NCBI GenBank assembly: GCA_030145525.1
Contig: JAQYVL010000071.1
Span: forward strand, 1-32,585
Direction of reading: 5' to 3'
DNA from: Desulfobacterales bacterium
Lineage (GTDB): Bacteria; Desulfobacterota; Desulfobacteria; Desulfobacterales; SURF-7
DNA length: 32,585 nt
The notes under the pieces are model-generated. The model was given only the letters and a program-made list of their open reading frames with translations, ran no database searches and had not been told where the DNA came from. Of the stretch, positions 19,457-26,932 are shown piece by piece. Position 1 is the stretch's first letter. Every line of letters starts with the position of its first letter. The translations under genes were made by a program, and so were the position numbers.

Positions 19457-20593
19457 TCAGGGCTTGTTTTTACTTTTTTGTTTCTGGGGCAGGGGCGCAA
19501 GCTCGTAGTTTCGGGTTCCGAGACCTATTTTTTCAGCATAGTCGAGTTGAATGGACCAGTCAACATATGGATAGAGCCCCTGAAATTTGTCTTCTCCGGC
19601 CTCCCTGTTTTCTTTCAGGCAGGAACCGGGCAGAGCTTTTTCCTTGTTCACAAGATCGACGGATGCCTGATCGATAGCAACCGGATCGGTGGAGGCGACG
19701 ATTCCGATATCCCGGACAAGGGGAGAATCGTTATGGCCGTAACAGTCGCAGGCAGGGGAGATGTCGGTGATAAAATTGACAAAAAGGGCTTTGTCGGCCT
19801 TTCCTTTCAGAACACCCATGGTGTACTCGACCATATTCTCCAGAAATACCGGGACAGACTGATCCCACTGAATCTGAATTGCGCTGTTCGGGCAGATAAG
19901 GATACACTCTCCGCATCCGATACATGTTTCCGGACTGATGAAGGCCTTTTTATCAGTAACTGATATTGCCTGCTGCGAGCAGTGCGGGATACAATCTTCG
20001 CAGCCAATGCATTTTTTTGCGACAACTTTCGGGCTGACGGTGGAATGCTGGGCGAGTTTTCCTTTTCTGGAAGCACAGCCCATTCCGATGTTTTTAAGGG
20101 TTCCGCCAAATCCTGAAAGTTCGTGCCCCTTGAAATGAGCAACGGAGACAATTGAATCCGCATTTATGATCTCAGATCCGATATAGACCTCTTTGAACCG
20201 GTTTTGGTTAATTTCAACAGCCACCTCGCTTTTGCCTCTCAAGCCGTCGGCAATCACGATGGGTGCATCTACAACCGAATAGGCAAAACCGTTTTGAAAT
20301 GCAGTTTTCAAATGGTTAACGGAATCGCTGCGTGTTCCCGCATATACGGTGTTGGCATCGGTTAAAAAGGGAGCGCCTCCGGCTTTTCGGATTGTATCTA
20401 CGATCTTTCGAAAAAAAACCGGCCGGATAAACGCCGAGTTTCCCAGTTCCCCGAAATGCAGCTTGACGGCAACTATTTCCCGTTTGGCAACAATCTGATT
20501 TAAGCCGGCTGTTTCCAGAAGCCTTCCAAGTTTGGAGATCAGATTTTCTTTGTGACCTGCACTCAAGTCAGTAAAATAAACCGTACTTTTCAT
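19457..20593 (-). CDS. DUF362-domain protein with two 4Fe-4S ferredoxin motifs
   Basis: AVKLHFGELGNSAFIRPVFFRKIVD...SVAHFKGHELSGFGGTLKNIGMGCASRKGK...CIGCEDCIPHCSQQAI...CIGCGECILICPNSAI. Confidence 0.88.
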   Translation of the reverse strand: MKSTVYFTDLSAGHKENLISKLGRLLETAGLNQIVAKREIVAVKLHFGELGNSAFIRPVFFRKIVDTIRKAGGAPFLTDANTVYAGTRSDSVNHLKTAFQNGFAYSVVDAPIVIADGLRGKSEVAVEINQNRFKEVYIGSEIINADSIVSVAHFKGHELSGFGGTLKNIGMGCASRKGKLAQHSTVSPKVVAKKCIGCEDCIPHCSQQAISVTDKKAFISPETCIGCGECILICPNSAIQIQWDQSVPVFLENMVEYTMGVLKGKADKALFVNFITDISPACDCYGHNDSPLVRDIGIVASTDPVAIDQASVDLVNKEKALPGSCLKENREAGEDKFQGLYPYVDWSIQLDYAEKIGLGTRNYELAPLPQKQKSKNKP

Positions 20594-20928: not shown

Positions 20929-21495
20929 ATGAGTTCTAAAAAATGGTCATCATGGAAGACTGGCTGCATATTGCCGGGGCTGCTTTTCGTGTTTATCATG
21001 GTTTTCAGCGGATGTGCAGCCAAGAAGGGCAGGGTTGAAGGCCTTTCCCCTTATTATCCCGGACCTCAGATTGCTGTTGAGCCAATTGTTGCAAGGCTTG
21101 GGATTTCAACTCTGTTAAAAACGCCTATTCGGATCGGCGGCATGGGTTTTGACCCTGGGGATACGGTTTTTATTGACATTGTTGGTGGGGAGGGGAAGAA
21201 GTCCATATCGATTCCGGTGGATTCGGGAGATGTAGATCTGCATGGCGGGTTTACAGTCGAAATCAGTCAGGAAGTGAAACTGCTTGAGATTTTGAGACTT
21301 GATATTGATCCGAGCAACAATAAACCCATAATTGTCCGCTCTACGATTCCTCCAGGGGCGTATGTTTTAAAGGCTGAGAGCGTCGAGGCTGATAAAAAGG
21401 CGGAATGTGTGATTCGGTTCGAAGCTCCGAATAAAATGGATCGTTTTAAGGACTGGTTAAAGGTTAAGCTGAGAAAAATCAAAAAGAAAAGGTAA
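20929..21495 (+). CDS. putative lipoprotein, unknown function
   Basis: N-terminal hydrophobic segment with lipobox (LLFVFIMVFSGCAAKK); remainder beta-rich, no recognised domain; basic C-terminus. Confidence 0.65.
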   Translation: MSSKKWSSWKTGCILPGLLFVFIMVFSGCAAKKGRVEGLSPYYPGPQIAVEPIVARLGISTLLKTPIRIGGMGFDPGDTVFIDIVGGEGKKSISIPVDSGDVDLHGGFTVEISQEVKLLEILRLDIDPSNNKPIIVRSTIPPGAYVLKAESVEADKKAECVIRFEAPNKMDRFKDWLKVKLRKIKKKR

Positions 21496-21521: not shown

Positions 21522-22667
21522 CTACATACTGATAAGTTTTATGAAACTATCAATAAGAAAAGGATTAAATGCGGTCCCCTTTTCTTCGGTCAAAATTTTA
21601 ATGATTAGTTCAGTGCTTTTTGGCGGGCTGTAAGAGCGCCGGCTCCTCATGGCATCAAACACATCTGCAACGGCAATCATCTGGCTGACAATATTTGGGT
21701 TCCACTTACCCTTGATTAACGGATAGCCCGTTCCGTCATATTTAATGTGATGTTCCAGGGCGCCCAATACAGCTATCCTGGGCATGTTTTCAAGCCCTAA
21801 AATATAACGCGCACCTTTGGTTGTATGCGTTTCAATAATCGCTCTTTCTTCTCTGGATAATTTTCCCGGCTTATTCAATATCTCTTCCGGGATAAACAGC
21901 TTGCCTGCATCATGCATAACAGAGGCAACACCGATCTGATAAAGGTGCTCGCCGGAAAAGCCAAGTGATTCCGCCTGACTCATGGTCAGAATGCAAACAT
22001 TGATAACATGTGTGAAGGTATATTCATCTACAGATTTCAGTGACGCCAGCATGCTGATGGGATTTATGCCTTGTGTGAAACCTTTGACAAAGGCGCTGAT
22101 CATCTCTTCTACTCCGCGAATATCAAGCTGTTTTTTTTTGATCTTGATATCGCGGTAAATTCCTTTTATTTCAGACAGGGTGGCATCCCGAAGCGAAATG
22201 ATATCTTTCAGATTTTCATATGAATTATCCGACAATGATTCATCTTGAGAAAGTTCTGTATCATCCACCCTGATTTCAACCTTGCCTAACTTTATATGCT
22301 CGCTGCTTTTGAGAGCAGTCGTTTCAGATGAGGCAAGATCCTTAATCAGTTGATAAAGGATCTCTTTGGAAAGCCCTTCTATAAATGTAATTCTTTCAAT
22401 GTTGTTTTCCTGGAGTATGGTTACAAACTGATATATGTTCGGCCCACCGTCCTGAACGGTCTGATTGTTAAAAACAAGGTTCTCCCCGATAACGATCAGA
22501 GTTATTTCCTGTCCGATCTGAAGAATGCGGTCAAGTTCGAGATATGTTAATTCAATATATTGCTTTACCTGCGGGTGTTTGAAAGTGTAAAGCCGGGAGT
22601 TTGATATTGCGGCATTAAACGCTTTGATGATCTGCAGAAGATCTTTTTTATATTCGATTTCAGGCAT
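21522..22667 (-). CDS. HD-GYP-domain phosphodiesterase-like protein with N-terminal sensor-like module
   Basis: VASVMHDAGKLFIPEEILNKPGKLSREERAIIETHTTKGARYIL...ALEHHIKYDGTGYPLIKGKWNPNIVSQMIAVADVFDAMRSRRSYSPP. Confidence 0.88.
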   Translation of the reverse strand: MPEIEYKKDLLQIIKAFNAAISNSRLYTFKHPQVKQYIELTYLELDRILQIGQEITLIVIGENLVFNNQTVQDGGPNIYQFVTILQENNIERITFIEGLSKEILYQLIKDLASSETTALKSSEHIKLGKVEIRVDDTELSQDESLSDNSYENLKDIISLRDATLSEIKGIYRDIKIKKKQLDIRGVEEMISAFVKGFTQGINPISMLASLKSVDEYTFTHVINVCILTMSQAESLGFSGEHLYQIGVASVMHDAGKLFIPEEILNKPGKLSREERAIIETHTTKGARYILGLENMPRIAVLGALEHHIKYDGTGYPLIKGKWNPNIVSQMIAVADVFDAMRSRRSYSPPKSTELIIKILTEEKGTAFNPFLIDSFIKLISM

Positions 22668-22748
22668 TTTATGATAAGAGTAAAAAATTTTTAGATTTTA
22701 TTTTTGCAGACCTCGGTCTGATTATTTTATAAAAATTAAAGCTGTGTT

Positions 22749-25010
22749 TCATGTTCCTTCTTTCAGGCTTTTCGGATTTAACTCCATGCGCTTATTCATG
22801 AGTGCTTGGCATAGTTCTCTGATTTTTTTATTTTTCAACTGCAGCCCAATCTGTAGAAGGGGGAAAATATCTGTTTGCTGATATCCTTCCAGGGTTTCAA
22901 AAATGGTTTGCTTCATCTTTGATAGGGTTTTTGGATAAAAAGTGAAAGAGGTTTTTAGAATTTTTTGCAAAACCGTGATTGTATCCGGATTGCCTATACT
23001 GCCGAGCGCTTTTATCAGCTCTTCATTCTGCTGTATGGCGGATCGAAACAGCATCAGGCGCCGCATCATTTTGTTGAGATCGTTTGCAGTTTCCTGCACC
23101 CTGTAATGGCCTGCCAGACGAATGGCATTGGATGCGACCTCCGGCTGGTTTGAGCGAAGCAGTTGGCGAAGAAGATCCCCTGCCTCAGGAATTTTAAACT
23201 TTAAAAGTGCGGAAAGAGCTTCCAGTTTAACATTTTCATCATGATGATTCAGAAGTCCTGTCAGGTTGGAGGCAATCTCTTTATTGCCCAGTTTTCGAAT
23301 CAGGATAACGAAATTCCTTACAAAATTCGGCCTGGGGTCGTTTATACGCTTCAGGGCCTCAAGAGATGCCATTCTGTTGAAATTGGACAGTATTTCGATT
23401 ATGGGCGCCGCATCTTTTGGATTCTCTTTTTTGGCATACATATTGACTGCTTCCGGAACAATCTTTGGGCCGAGCATGACAAGGAATTCGGAAGCATCGC
23501 TGTTTTTTTGATCTTCGAGCTTATCAAACGCGGCGACCGTCATTGCGATAAAAAGCGGTTTTTGAAATTCCTTCAGATACTCCTTTGCTATTGCCTGCAG
23601 CTCCGGATTGGATTTATGGATGGCGTGCATTTGAAACGTTACGAATATTTCTTTAAGAAATGAAAAATATTCATGTCCCTCAAGGTTGCTTTTCTGGGAG
23701 ATTGAAATGATTCTTTTCGAATAATCCAGGTATTCTTCCGGTTCGATCTCCTCATCCATAAAAGCTGTGAGAACGCGGGCAATCTGAAAATCAAGGTTGT
23801 TATCCTCCAGGGTTTTAATATGCTCTTCCAGGTTAAATGTATCGTCATCTGTCTTTTCAATAGTTGTTCTATCCGCAAGGCCTCTGAGAGTATCACGGTA
23901 TTCCTTTTCAACAAAATGCTCATAATCTTCCCGTTTAAAAAGTTCTCTGGCCTCGTCGGACTGAATTTCAGGGGGACTCCCCTCAAAAGAAGTTTTCAGC
24001 TCCTCAAAATTTTTATCATCCTTGAGATTTAAACCGGCCATTTTCTGTACAAAACTCATCAGAGCCGGTGAAATTTCCTTTCCTTCCTCATTGGCCTGAT
24101 TCAGCATTTCAACAACAATTTTTTCTTCGAGTCCTTCCAGTATTTTTTTGCCTTTTGGTGTCTCCGCCTTTGGATTACATTGGTCAAAGACTGCCCTTAA
24201 AAATTGACTTCTGATTTCAGGATTAAGATTCTGTAACAGTTGATTCAGGTTATCCATGTGCAGGAGATCCTGCTGGTCGGCAAACTCCCCATCTGATATG
24301 TCATGGATCTGGTTCGTGATAAATTGTTCAAAGATTAGCCTGGCCTTCGTTTCATCAACGTCCTGTTCGTTCAGAAAGCGGGCAAGTTCAACCGGGTTGA
24401 CTTGACCCGCATCCAGAAAGGGCAGGCTCTCTTCTGAATCTGAAATTGTTCCGGCGGTCAGACTGGTAACAAAATCATGCCAGATCGTGGAAGTTTGTTT
24501 TCTCTCATCACCGGTTCGATCGATAATGATCTCTTTTTCTTCCGTAAGATGAAGTTTGCTGAAATCAACTGTTTGAATCTTGATATTCGAGAGAGAGTAC
24601 TCAGACGCAAACGCTTTAATACCGCCTTTCTCACGAACGATATCAGGTCTGTTGGAGATAAGTCTGAGAAATCTGAGAAGTTCTTTTTTCTCAAGCCCCT
24701 TTAAAAATGTTACGGATACAATATCATGCTGTTTCAGGGGGATTGAAAATTCTTTGAATATTTTATTTTTCGGGTCCAGATATTCCTTTCCGATAAGCAG
24801 GGCATCATCGGCAACGGTAATTGTAAACTTTTCACGGGAACTAAAAATCAGATTCAGCGCATTAATGGAACGCTCAATGCTCTGCTCAACCTGTGCGTGG
24901 CCGTCAGGATAAATCAGAACATTTTTACGAGTAATATTGAGCTCTATGACGGCTTCAGCCGGTTCCTGGTTTTTCGGAATATCTTTCTCTGGTTTCTGGT
25001 TTTCTGCCAT
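22749..25010 (-). CDS. large HEAT-repeat-like protein sharing an N-terminal module with the neighbouring HD-GYP protein
   Basis: 753 aa; C-terminal helical repeats (RNFVILIRKLGNKEIASNLTGLLNHHDENVKLEALSALLKFKIPEAGDLLRQLLRSNQPEVASNAIRLAGHY); N-terminus alignable to the HD-GYP N-terminus. Confidence 0.75.
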   Translation of the reverse strand: MAENQKPEKDIPKNQEPAEAVIELNITRKNVLIYPDGHAQVEQSIERSINALNLIFSSREKFTITVADDALLIGKEYLDPKNKIFKEFSIPLKQHDIVSVTFLKGLEKKELLRFLRLISNRPDIVREKGGIKAFASEYSLSNIKIQTVDFSKLHLTEEKEIIIDRTGDERKQTSTIWHDFVTSLTAGTISDSEESLPFLDAGQVNPVELARFLNEQDVDETKARLIFEQFITNQIHDISDGEFADQQDLLHMDNLNQLLQNLNPEIRSQFLRAVFDQCNPKAETPKGKKILEGLEEKIVVEMLNQANEEGKEISPALMSFVQKMAGLNLKDDKNFEELKTSFEGSPPEIQSDEARELFKREDYEHFVEKEYRDTLRGLADRTTIEKTDDDTFNLEEHIKTLEDNNLDFQIARVLTAFMDEEIEPEEYLDYSKRIISISQKSNLEGHEYFSFLKEIFVTFQMHAIHKSNPELQAIAKEYLKEFQKPLFIAMTVAAFDKLEDQKNSDASEFLVMLGPKIVPEAVNMYAKKENPKDAAPIIEILSNFNRMASLEALKRINDPRPNFVRNFVILIRKLGNKEIASNLTGLLNHHDENVKLEALSALLKFKIPEAGDLLRQLLRSNQPEVASNAIRLAGHYRVQETANDLNKMMRRLMLFRSAIQQNEELIKALGSIGNPDTITVLQKILKTSFTFYPKTLSKMKQTIFETLEGYQQTDIFPLLQIGLQLKNKKIRELCQALMNKRMELNPKSLKEGT

Positions 25011-25306: not shown

Positions 25307-26932
25307 ATGATTTTACATTTGCAAAGACCCTTTAGGATCAAGGCGGTACTGTTTGACTTTGACGGCACCCTGACACAACCGGGTGCAATTGATTTTTCAA
25401 TCATCCGAAAGGCGATCGGATGTCCCGAGAACCAGCCGATTATCGAATTCATTGAAGCGATTCCCGATAGAAATCTTCAGCAAAAATACTTTTTATATCT
25501 GGAACAGTTTGAGATGGAGGGGGCTGAAAAATCAATGCCGAATCCGGACGCGGAAACCGCTATACAATATCTGCGTTCTGCAAAGCTTTACACCGGTATT
25601 ATCAGCCGCAACGGAATGTTGTCAATAAAAAGAGCCTTTGAGAATTTTGGAAAACTGGGAATGGAAGATTTTGATCTTATCATCACCAGGGATGATCCGA
25701 TTGCCCCTAAACCGAGCGATGACGGAATAAATTTAGCAGCGGACAGATTTAAGATCAAACCTGAAGAGATTCTCGTTGTTGGAGATTATATTTATGATAT
25801 TGAGTCTGGAAATCGTGCCGGGGCTATAACGGTTTTTTTGTCCAATTCAGGGGCGGCGGCATCTTTCAACATTGAAAGCGATTTTCAAATTTCACGGCTT
25901 TCCGAACTGGGAAATATTGTTCGGCTGGGATTGCCCCTTTCTTCCGGAAAATTTCCGGCAGATCTTTTGAAACTTTTTCTTGATTCTCTTGAGTTCGAGG
26001 ATCCTTCAATTCTTGTTCGCCCCGGAATCGGGGAAGATAATGCCGTCGTCAGTATTGATGGGGAAGAAATTCTGGTGTTAAAATCCGATCCAATAACATT
26101 TGTTACAGAAAATCTGGGGTATTACACGGTGCTGATCAATGCAAATGATATCGCAACATCAGGTGCAAGACCCCGCTGGTTTCTTACGACCCTTTTTTTT
26201 CCACCTGGAGTGACTCCTTCGATGGTTTTTACTGTTATGAATGAATTGAAAAGGGCGTGTCAACAATTCGGGATCATGCTTTGCGGAGGGCATACGGAGA
26301 TAACCGATTCCGTAAATCGTCCTATAGTAACCGGTATGCTTGCCGGGACAGCGGATAAAAAATCCCTAATCGACAAAAAGCGAATAAAAAAAGGAGATCG
26401 GGTTCTGCTTACCAAAGGCGTGGCTGTAGAAGGGACGGCAATAATCGCCGGAGAATTGACGGAAAAGCTTGAAAATCTCGGGTTGTCTCAAATGACAATT
26501 GAATCCGCAAAGAGATTTCGGGAAAATATCAGCATTCTGGAGGAGGCCGGTATTGCAGCAGTCCATGAGGGTGTCACCGCCATGCATGATGTCACGGAAG
26601 GAGGGATAGCCATGGCTGTATATGAGCTTTCCGTGGCCTCCGGCTGTAAAATTGAAATTGATATGGATAAAATTTCTATTTTTCCGGAAACAGAAGAGAT
26701 TTGTCAGTTGCTTGATTTAAATCCGTTTGGCCTGATCGGTTCCGGCGCGCTTCTAATCTGTTGCAAACCAGTTTCTTTTGAGGGGCTTATAAAAAAAATT
26801 AAAAACGCCGGAATCGAAATTGCCGTCATCGGAGAGGTTGCAGAATCAGGAGAAGGCGTTGAGGCATTAAAAAATAACCGAAAAACATCATGGCCGGTTT
26901 TTGAATCCGATGAAATCACCCGTCTTTTTTAA
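25307..26932 (+). CDS. fusion protein: N-terminal HAD-superfamily hydrolase + C-terminal AIR-synthase-related (HypE/SelD/ThiL-like) domain
   Basis: HAD: VLFDFDGTLTQPG, IISRNG, GDYIYDIESGNRAG. AIRS: GEDNAVVSIDGEEILVLKSDPITF, INANDIATSGARPRWFLTTL, GGHTEITDSVNRPIVTGMLAG, MHDVTEGGIAMAVYELS. Confidence 0.87.
   Translation: MILHLQRPFRIKAVLFDFDGTLTQPGAIDFSIIRKAIGCPENQPIIEFIEAIPDRNLQQKYFLYLEQFEMEGAEKSMPNPDAETAIQYLRSAKLYTGIISRNGMLSIKRAFENFGKLGMEDFDLIITRDDPIAPKPSDDGINLAADRFKIKPEEILVVGDYIYDIESGNRAGAITVFLSNSGAAASFNIESDFQISRLSELGNIVRLGLPLSSGKFPADLLKLFLDSLEFEDPSILVRPGIGEDNAVVSIDGEEILVLKSDPITFVTENLGYYTVLINANDIATSGARPRWFLTTLFFPPGVTPSMVFTVMNELKRACQQFGIMLCGGHTEITDSVNRPIVTGMLAGTADKKSLIDKKRIKKGDRVLLTKGVAVEGTAIIAGELTEKLENLGLSQMTIESAKRFRENISILEEAGIAAVHEGVTAMHDVTEGGIAMAVYELSVASGCKIEIDMDKISIFPETEEICQLLDLNPFGLIGSGALLICCKPVSFEGLIKKIKNAGIEIAVIGEVAESGEGVEALKNNRKTSWPVFESDEITRLF

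Follow-up and report, generated by a model that had tools for sequence, protein, structure and literature searches.

A HEAT-repeat gene and a putative HD-GYP phosphodiesterase gene in tandem are headed by a common, unnamed N-terminal module

Several described HD-GYP proteins bear directly on the locus considered here. The homodimer of PmGH (PDB 4MCW; GAF-helix-HD-GYP) is built by its N-terminal GAF domain together with a long helix, and not by HD-GYP (PMC4159591). Bd1817 of Bdellovibrio (3TM8), of the DUF3391-HD-GYP architecture, carries an N-terminal domain of ~120-130 residues before HD-GYP; DUF3391 is made up mostly of antiparallel strands, to which one or two helices are added (PMC12943098). 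Phosphodiesterase activity is absent from Bd1817, whose metal ligands are non-consensus (PMC3774798). In Xanthomonas, RpfG forms complexes with GGDEF and PilZ proteins that are mediated by its GYP motif, and trigger-enzyme behavior has been proposed for it (PMC4159591). Here we describe two adjacent genes in a 32,585-nucleotide stretch of DNA from a Desulfobacterales bacterium (contig JAQYVL010000071.1 of assembly GCA_030145525.1; hereafter, the window), one encoding a HEAT-repeat protein and the other an HD-GYP protein, whose N-termini share a module that we call MOD. The two genes constitute a real, well-conserved unit headed by an unnamed domain. It is apparently hitherto undescribed: a literature search, which left most subscription papers outside its reach, found no description of a MOD-HEAT/MOD-HD-GYP pair.

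The N-termini of the HEAT and HD-GYP proteins are homologous. BLASTP aligned them without gaps at 23/93 identities (single-sequence E 6e-8), and their Smith-Waterman score of 95 compares with a mean of 33 for shuffled sequences (sd 5.2, maximum 60 in 2000; z 11.9). Searched against the whole of its own genome, the HD-GYP N-terminus matched at just two places, its own and the N-terminus of the HEAT protein (E 1.1e-5); by these three results, the likeness is not due to chance. For relatives, 84,980 species genomes were scanned and phylum surveys were added, and when the two N-terminal families were compared profile to profile, they matched over 122 columns (99.5%, P 8e-23), or, with deeper alignments (hhalign), over 138 columns (99.8%, E 2.4e-30). 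A preliminary description of the window, made from its letters alone, had proposed this homology on the basis of 19 identities over 73 residues, a count that proved exact. While its claim that the N-termini can be aligned stands, the module is longer than the quoted 73 residues, at ~125-140. The open reading frames (ORFs) are likewise as described there: both on the minus strand, the HEAT gene upstream and the HD-GYP gene downstream, across an 81-bp gap.

The pair is conserved. Several kilobases were read around many of the matches, at loci picked partly for unusual ORF lengths and not as a random sample. For 65 MOD-HD-GYP genes, a co-directional MOD-HEAT gene lies directly 5', with -28 to 167 nt (mostly <60 nt) between the HEAT end and the start of the MOD match of the HD-GYP protein. 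For three others (L153, L155, and L016), the HEAT gene is present upstream, split or merged by frame breaks in the assembly. The genes flanking the pair showed no recurring families (41 and 42 neighbors; best counts 4 and 2), indicating that the unit is two genes; a larger conserved operon was rejected, as the neighbors have only sporadic families in common. An ordered gene pair with the same N-terminal domain, conserved across several phyla, suggests that the two proteins act as a unit. Ordinary tandem paralogy, in which the N-terminal domain gained a second copy alongside the first and the genes stay adjacent through co-expression as an operon, with no joint function, is in our judgment an improbable account of this arrangement. 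Duplication is common here, in that two complete or near-complete pairs lie in tandem on one contig in two cases (L116:3145-9396 and L165:2072-11641). However, the C-terminal domains of the two proteins are unrelated to each other, the genes keep their order and strand in at least four phyla despite changing neighbors, and only one MOD-HD-GYP gene among the loci read (L152) is clearly without a HEAT partner.

The two kinds of MOD form separate lineages. A maximum-likelihood tree built from 130 modules placed the 72 HEAT-type and the 58 HD-type sequences on opposite sides; it contained 2 label changes, relative to a shuffled mean of 42.7, and 70% of bootstrap trees had 1 label change between types. 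Against type-specific profiles, each window module scored far higher with its own type (150.7 vs. 77.5 bits and 135.4 vs. 65.5 bits). The distance matrices of the partners were correlated (r 0.82; 0/2000 permutations), as expected under co-inheritance, shared species history also contributing. Judged from these sequences, the split probably reflects an old duplication whose products were inherited together; either (i) a duplication older than the divergence of the sampled phyla, or (ii) early spread of a ready-made pair, would explain the two lineages. The two-gene unit suggested in the preliminary description, together with the conservation that it proposed to check, is thus borne out by the pairs and their single exception, by the variable flanks, and by the two co-inherited lineages. 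Among the genomes sampled, MOD was present in 117/297 from the phylum of the window, in 70/118 of Nitrospirota (Nitrospirae; the phylum of L024), in 64/101 of Gemmatimonadota (Gemmatimonadetes; the phylum of L035), and in 30/60 of the phylum containing a WOR-3 genome. A Bacillota sample yielded 0/200, and a second Bacillota draw 1/61, the exception being G302, the genome that had brought the group in. The presence of MOD in G302 and in G297 may be due to transfer or mis-binning.

The C-terminal part of the shorter protein matches Pfam HD_5 (4.6e-20; 72.5 bits relative to a cut-off of 27.2), and its HD-GYP domain aligns with that of PmGH over 170 residues (E 1.5e-28). Seven of the eight metal ligands are present (H220, H252, D253, H281, H306, H307, and D335) and, like the GYP motif (G314-Y315-P316), are invariant in the family alignment (A2). 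Also present are K256, D338, and R344, and the protein has equivalents of PmGH D183, K225, D308, and R314. The eighth ligand position, E185 in PmGH, is occupied by Y216, likewise invariant in A2. As Tyr or Phe at this position marks the Y/F, probably binuclear, subfamily of HD-GYP proteins (PMC4159591), we assign the window protein to that subfamily. The conserved catalytic residues suggest that it is likely an active phosphodiesterase, in agreement with its earlier description as a putative one; unlike Bd1817, it has consensus ligands.

In PmGH and in the window protein, an N-terminal domain and a helical linker stand in corresponding places, whereas the domain itself is GAF in the former and MOD in the latter, which in addition is encoded with a HEAT partner bearing the same module. 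Because MOD and its linker occupy the places of the dimerizing GAF domain and helix, and because the second protein offers a paralogous MOD, we propose that the modules assemble with one another. At a probability of about 50%, we favor a two-protein cyclic di-GMP (c-di-GMP), or cyclic GMP-AMP (cGAMP), unit in which the HEAT scaffold would, by way of MOD, pair with the apparently active phosphodiesterase and control it. In such a unit, an ancestral MOD gene (~130 residues) would have been duplicated either before the carrier phyla had split from each other or at an early stage of its spread; one of the copies would have come to head a HEAT-repeat scaffold, and the other a catalytically complete HD-GYP phosphodiesterase of the binuclear class. 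The scaffold would be translated first and the enzyme second, from genes that usually almost touch. MOD would then pair with MOD, most likely between the HEAT and HD-GYP proteins (HEAT::HD-GYP), and this hetero-assembly would compete with homodimers or take their place. With a client or a signal bound by the HEAT solenoid, the state would be relayed through the helical linker to the HD-GYP domain, so that the hydrolysis of c-di-GMP (or cGAMP) is switched or localized. The complexes of RpfG with GGDEF and PilZ proteins resemble this proposal in that an HD-GYP enzyme is held with partner proteins, but contact there is made through the GYP motif, while here a shared N-terminal module would serve, with a HEAT scaffold as the partner.

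The signal might also run in the opposite direction, from enzyme to scaffold, if the HD-GYP protein were mainly a trigger or adaptor, reshaped by nucleotide binding or turnover so as to release or arm a HEAT effector. The trigger-enzyme behavior proposed for RpfG, and the complexes formed by its GYP motif, lend this some precedent, as does the existence of HEAT proteins without HD-GYP, the reverse being hardly seen, as if HEAT were the output. Nevertheless, HEAT proteins are not among the partners described for RpfG, which are PilZ adaptors and GGDEF proteins, and we consider this alternative very doubtful.

The 753-aa partner has several repeats above the Pfam cut-off and is a HEAT-repeat scaffold protein, as the preliminary description had it: HEAT_2 matched at 1e-14 over residues 553-630 (55 bits relative to a cut-off of 27.7, in two stretches), and HEAT_PBS at 22.2 bits relative to a cut-off of 20.9. 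It resembles PBS-lyase-type HEAT proteins (NblB, TIGR02270) in these C-terminal HEAT_2/HEAT_PBS repeats, but scores far under the cut-offs of those models (18.4 vs. 300 and 14 vs. 206.8 bits), neither of which reaches the MOD region. PADLOC returned a weak HEAT-ARM_XIII match to the HEAT region (21 bits), which is probably generic HEAT similarity, and a role as a defense system was rejected on this account.

For the fold of MOD, AlphaFold2 was run separately on the two families. With the 72 HEAT-type sequences only, the HEAT-type module was predicted with a local confidence (pLDDT) of 92.8 and a predicted template-modeling score (pTM) of 0.81, its helices (H) and strands (E) being H4-22, H28-45, E50-56, E59-62, H72-83, E86-92, H97-108, two short helices, and E132-136. 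The full HD-GYP protein, predicted from its own family alone, begins with H2-26, H32-51, E54-60, E63-66, H75-87, E92-96, H101-112, and E125-128. The elements thus follow in identical order in both modules, as a comparison of order rather than a superposition, and the differing N-terminal folds that would have spoken against homology were not seen. This predicted mixed alpha/beta order (H-H-E-E-H-E-H-E), starting with two long helices, differs from the beta-rich fold of DUF3391, to which Pfam also gave no match; MOD was accordingly not identified with DUF3391.

We found no other known family to which MOD could be assigned. Among the 72 and 58 modules, no Pfam family matched more than one member, and none of them had a Pfam GAF match; NCBIfam and PHROGs had no match in the MOD region. 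Matches from a search of PDB sequences were all short and involved proteins that are engineered or unrelated; Octarellin V.1 and a designed cytochrome trimer were discarded as hits covering ~40 residues of engineered proteins. With no shared match in Pfam, NCBIfam, PHROGs, PADLOC, or PDB sequences, the candidate that MOD is a known domain was rejected, as was the concern that it is an already characterized Pfam domain; it appears to be unnamed in the libraries searched (Pfam, NCBIfam, PHROGs, and PADLOC). Foldseek returned nothing at E <= 0.001 among PDB or viral models, and the fold is possibly absent from the PDB so far. The top PDB matches, all non-significant (E 0.13 or worse, TM-score ~0.17), were to GAF-containing PelD and NifA. 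All 72 HEAT-type modules share a Tyr whose conservation among the 58 HD-type modules is at least 90%, and a His following it (Y-x3-H) is widespread. Since in the predicted models both residues sit at the turn that joins helices 1 and 2, a structural role seems likelier than a catalytic one.

MOD also occurs outside the pair. A single 1423-aa chain (L097:3-4271:+) has the architecture GGDEF - AAA_16/STAND - MOD - MOD - HEAT, tying a diguanylate cyclase to the same HEAT scaffold and to a STAND-type ATPase; five further chains of similar length (L098, L099, L120, L145, and L146), read at this end only, have the same MOD-MOD-HEAT end. A protein of the WOR-3 group (L162) reads GGDEF ... MOD - HEAT, so that two phyla have MOD-HEAT fused in cis with GGDEF. 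In two histidine kinases (L122:1287-3656:- and L173:1965-4328:-), MOD lies near the N-terminus and is followed by an unassigned stretch and then by PAS-HisKA-HATPase. These fusions place MOD in signaling proteins, and MOD-HEAT accompanies both the making and the breaking of cyclic dinucleotides; the earlier suggestion of an input domain gains support from them.

MOD could, then, be a small-molecule or redox/metal input domain, each protein forming its own homodimer; the two proteins would share a stimulus and a transcript but would not bind each other. Its sensor-domain position in histidine kinases and HD-GYP proteins would suit such a function, as would the GAF domains (PelD and NifA included) among the non-significant fold leads and the near-invariant Tyr with its widespread His. 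On the other hand, these residues look structural, being at a helix-helix turn; Ser replaces His in the tandem MODs of L097; no strongly conserved polar pocket signature is evident, with few invariant columns in the alignments A4 and A5; and a shared stimulus by itself leaves the near-constant adjacency and order of the genes unexplained. We therefore regard a pure input role as plausible, if on balance unlikely.

Several observations weigh against pairing of the scaffold with the enzyme through MOD. The lean of the non-significant Foldseek matches toward GAF domains would also suit a ligand sensor. An HD-GYP gene is often missing next to MOD-HEAT genes, chiefly those of the WOR-3 group, so that the scaffold can do without one nearby; many unpaired MOD-HEAT genes lie at L160-L178, in the phylum containing a WOR-3 genome. 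Finally, the two MODs that lie in tandem in GGDEF proteins are no clean fused version of the pair: that they represent a HEAT-type and an HD-type copy joined together was not supported by the type-specific profiles, and we do not claim the tandem as a fused pair. The dimerization or physical pairing put forward in the preliminary description would fit the findings, although the natural MOD-MOD tandems are only suggestive for it. A wider proposal, which we offer tentatively and hold to be less probable than not, is that MOD is a new, widespread domain for signaling and pairing, possibly of a fold that the PDB does not yet contain. It would mark out a class of cyclic-dinucleotide systems whose HEAT scaffold would control hydrolysis in trans (the HD-GYP pair) or, in the GGDEF-STAND-MOD-MOD-HEAT proteins, synthesis in cis, the switch being the heterotypic pairing of MOD with MOD.

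The coordinates of the pair are collected in Table 1. The inverted repeat in the intergenic gap is no more than chance would be expected to produce, and a sequence and pattern scan of the gap found no clear Shine-Dalgarno sequence before the HD-GYP ATG. Riboswitch control of the pair was rejected, as the only Rfam match in the window was one tRNA. The genome contains just one MOD-HEAT/MOD-HD-GYP pair; it also encodes GGDEF proteins, which would supply the messenger for the HD-GYP enzyme. Divergent from the pair, at 25307-26932 (+), a 541-aa ORF encodes an unusual fusion of a HAD hydrolase to AIRS/AIRS_C (HypE/AIR-synthase-like). A 188-aa ORF convergent with the HD-GYP gene (20929-21495, +) has no Pfam or NCBIfam family and a sub-threshold pilin-like match (0.02), and a 378-aa DUF362 protein with 4Fe-4S ferredoxin-type motifs is encoded at 19457-20593 (-).

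Table 1. Positions of the paired genes and of their predicted parts in the window.
Feature	Position	Strand	Remarks
MOD-HEAT gene	22749..25010	-	753-aa ORF; first of pair; homologues 5' of HD-GYP gene in relatives
MOD of HEAT protein	24537..24959	-	~residues 18-158; predicted H-H-E-E-H-E-H-h-h-E; A4 alignment and AlphaFold2 model
HEAT-repeat region	22788..23693	-	C-terminal, ~residues 440-741; Pfam HEAT_2/HEAT_PBS; conserved HTC profile
Intergenic gap	22668..22748	.	81 bp; small inverted repeat at 22707-22720 (sequence and pattern scan)
MOD-HD-GYP gene	21522..22667	-	381-aa ORF; second of pair; Pfam HD_5
MOD of HD-GYP protein	22263..22646	-	residues 8-135; A5 profile, hhalign 99.8% to HEAT-type; AlphaFold2 element order
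Predicted helical linker, MOD to HD-GYP	22074..22229	-	residues 147-198; AlphaFold2 pLDDT 51-73; low to moderate confidence
HD-GYP domain	21531..22055	-	residues 205-379; complete binuclear-type site

HD-GYP enzymes are common, and their control is mostly unknown; a next-door partner with the same N-terminal module, kept across several phyla, offers a concrete, testable control mechanism. MOD occurs in roughly 40-60% of the sampled genomes of three phyla, yet is without a Pfam or NCBIfam model. Naming it would annotate hundreds of proteins, would link seemingly unrelated diguanylate cyclases, phosphodiesterases, and histidine kinases, and would make the heterotypic assembly of c-di-GMP enzymes testable.

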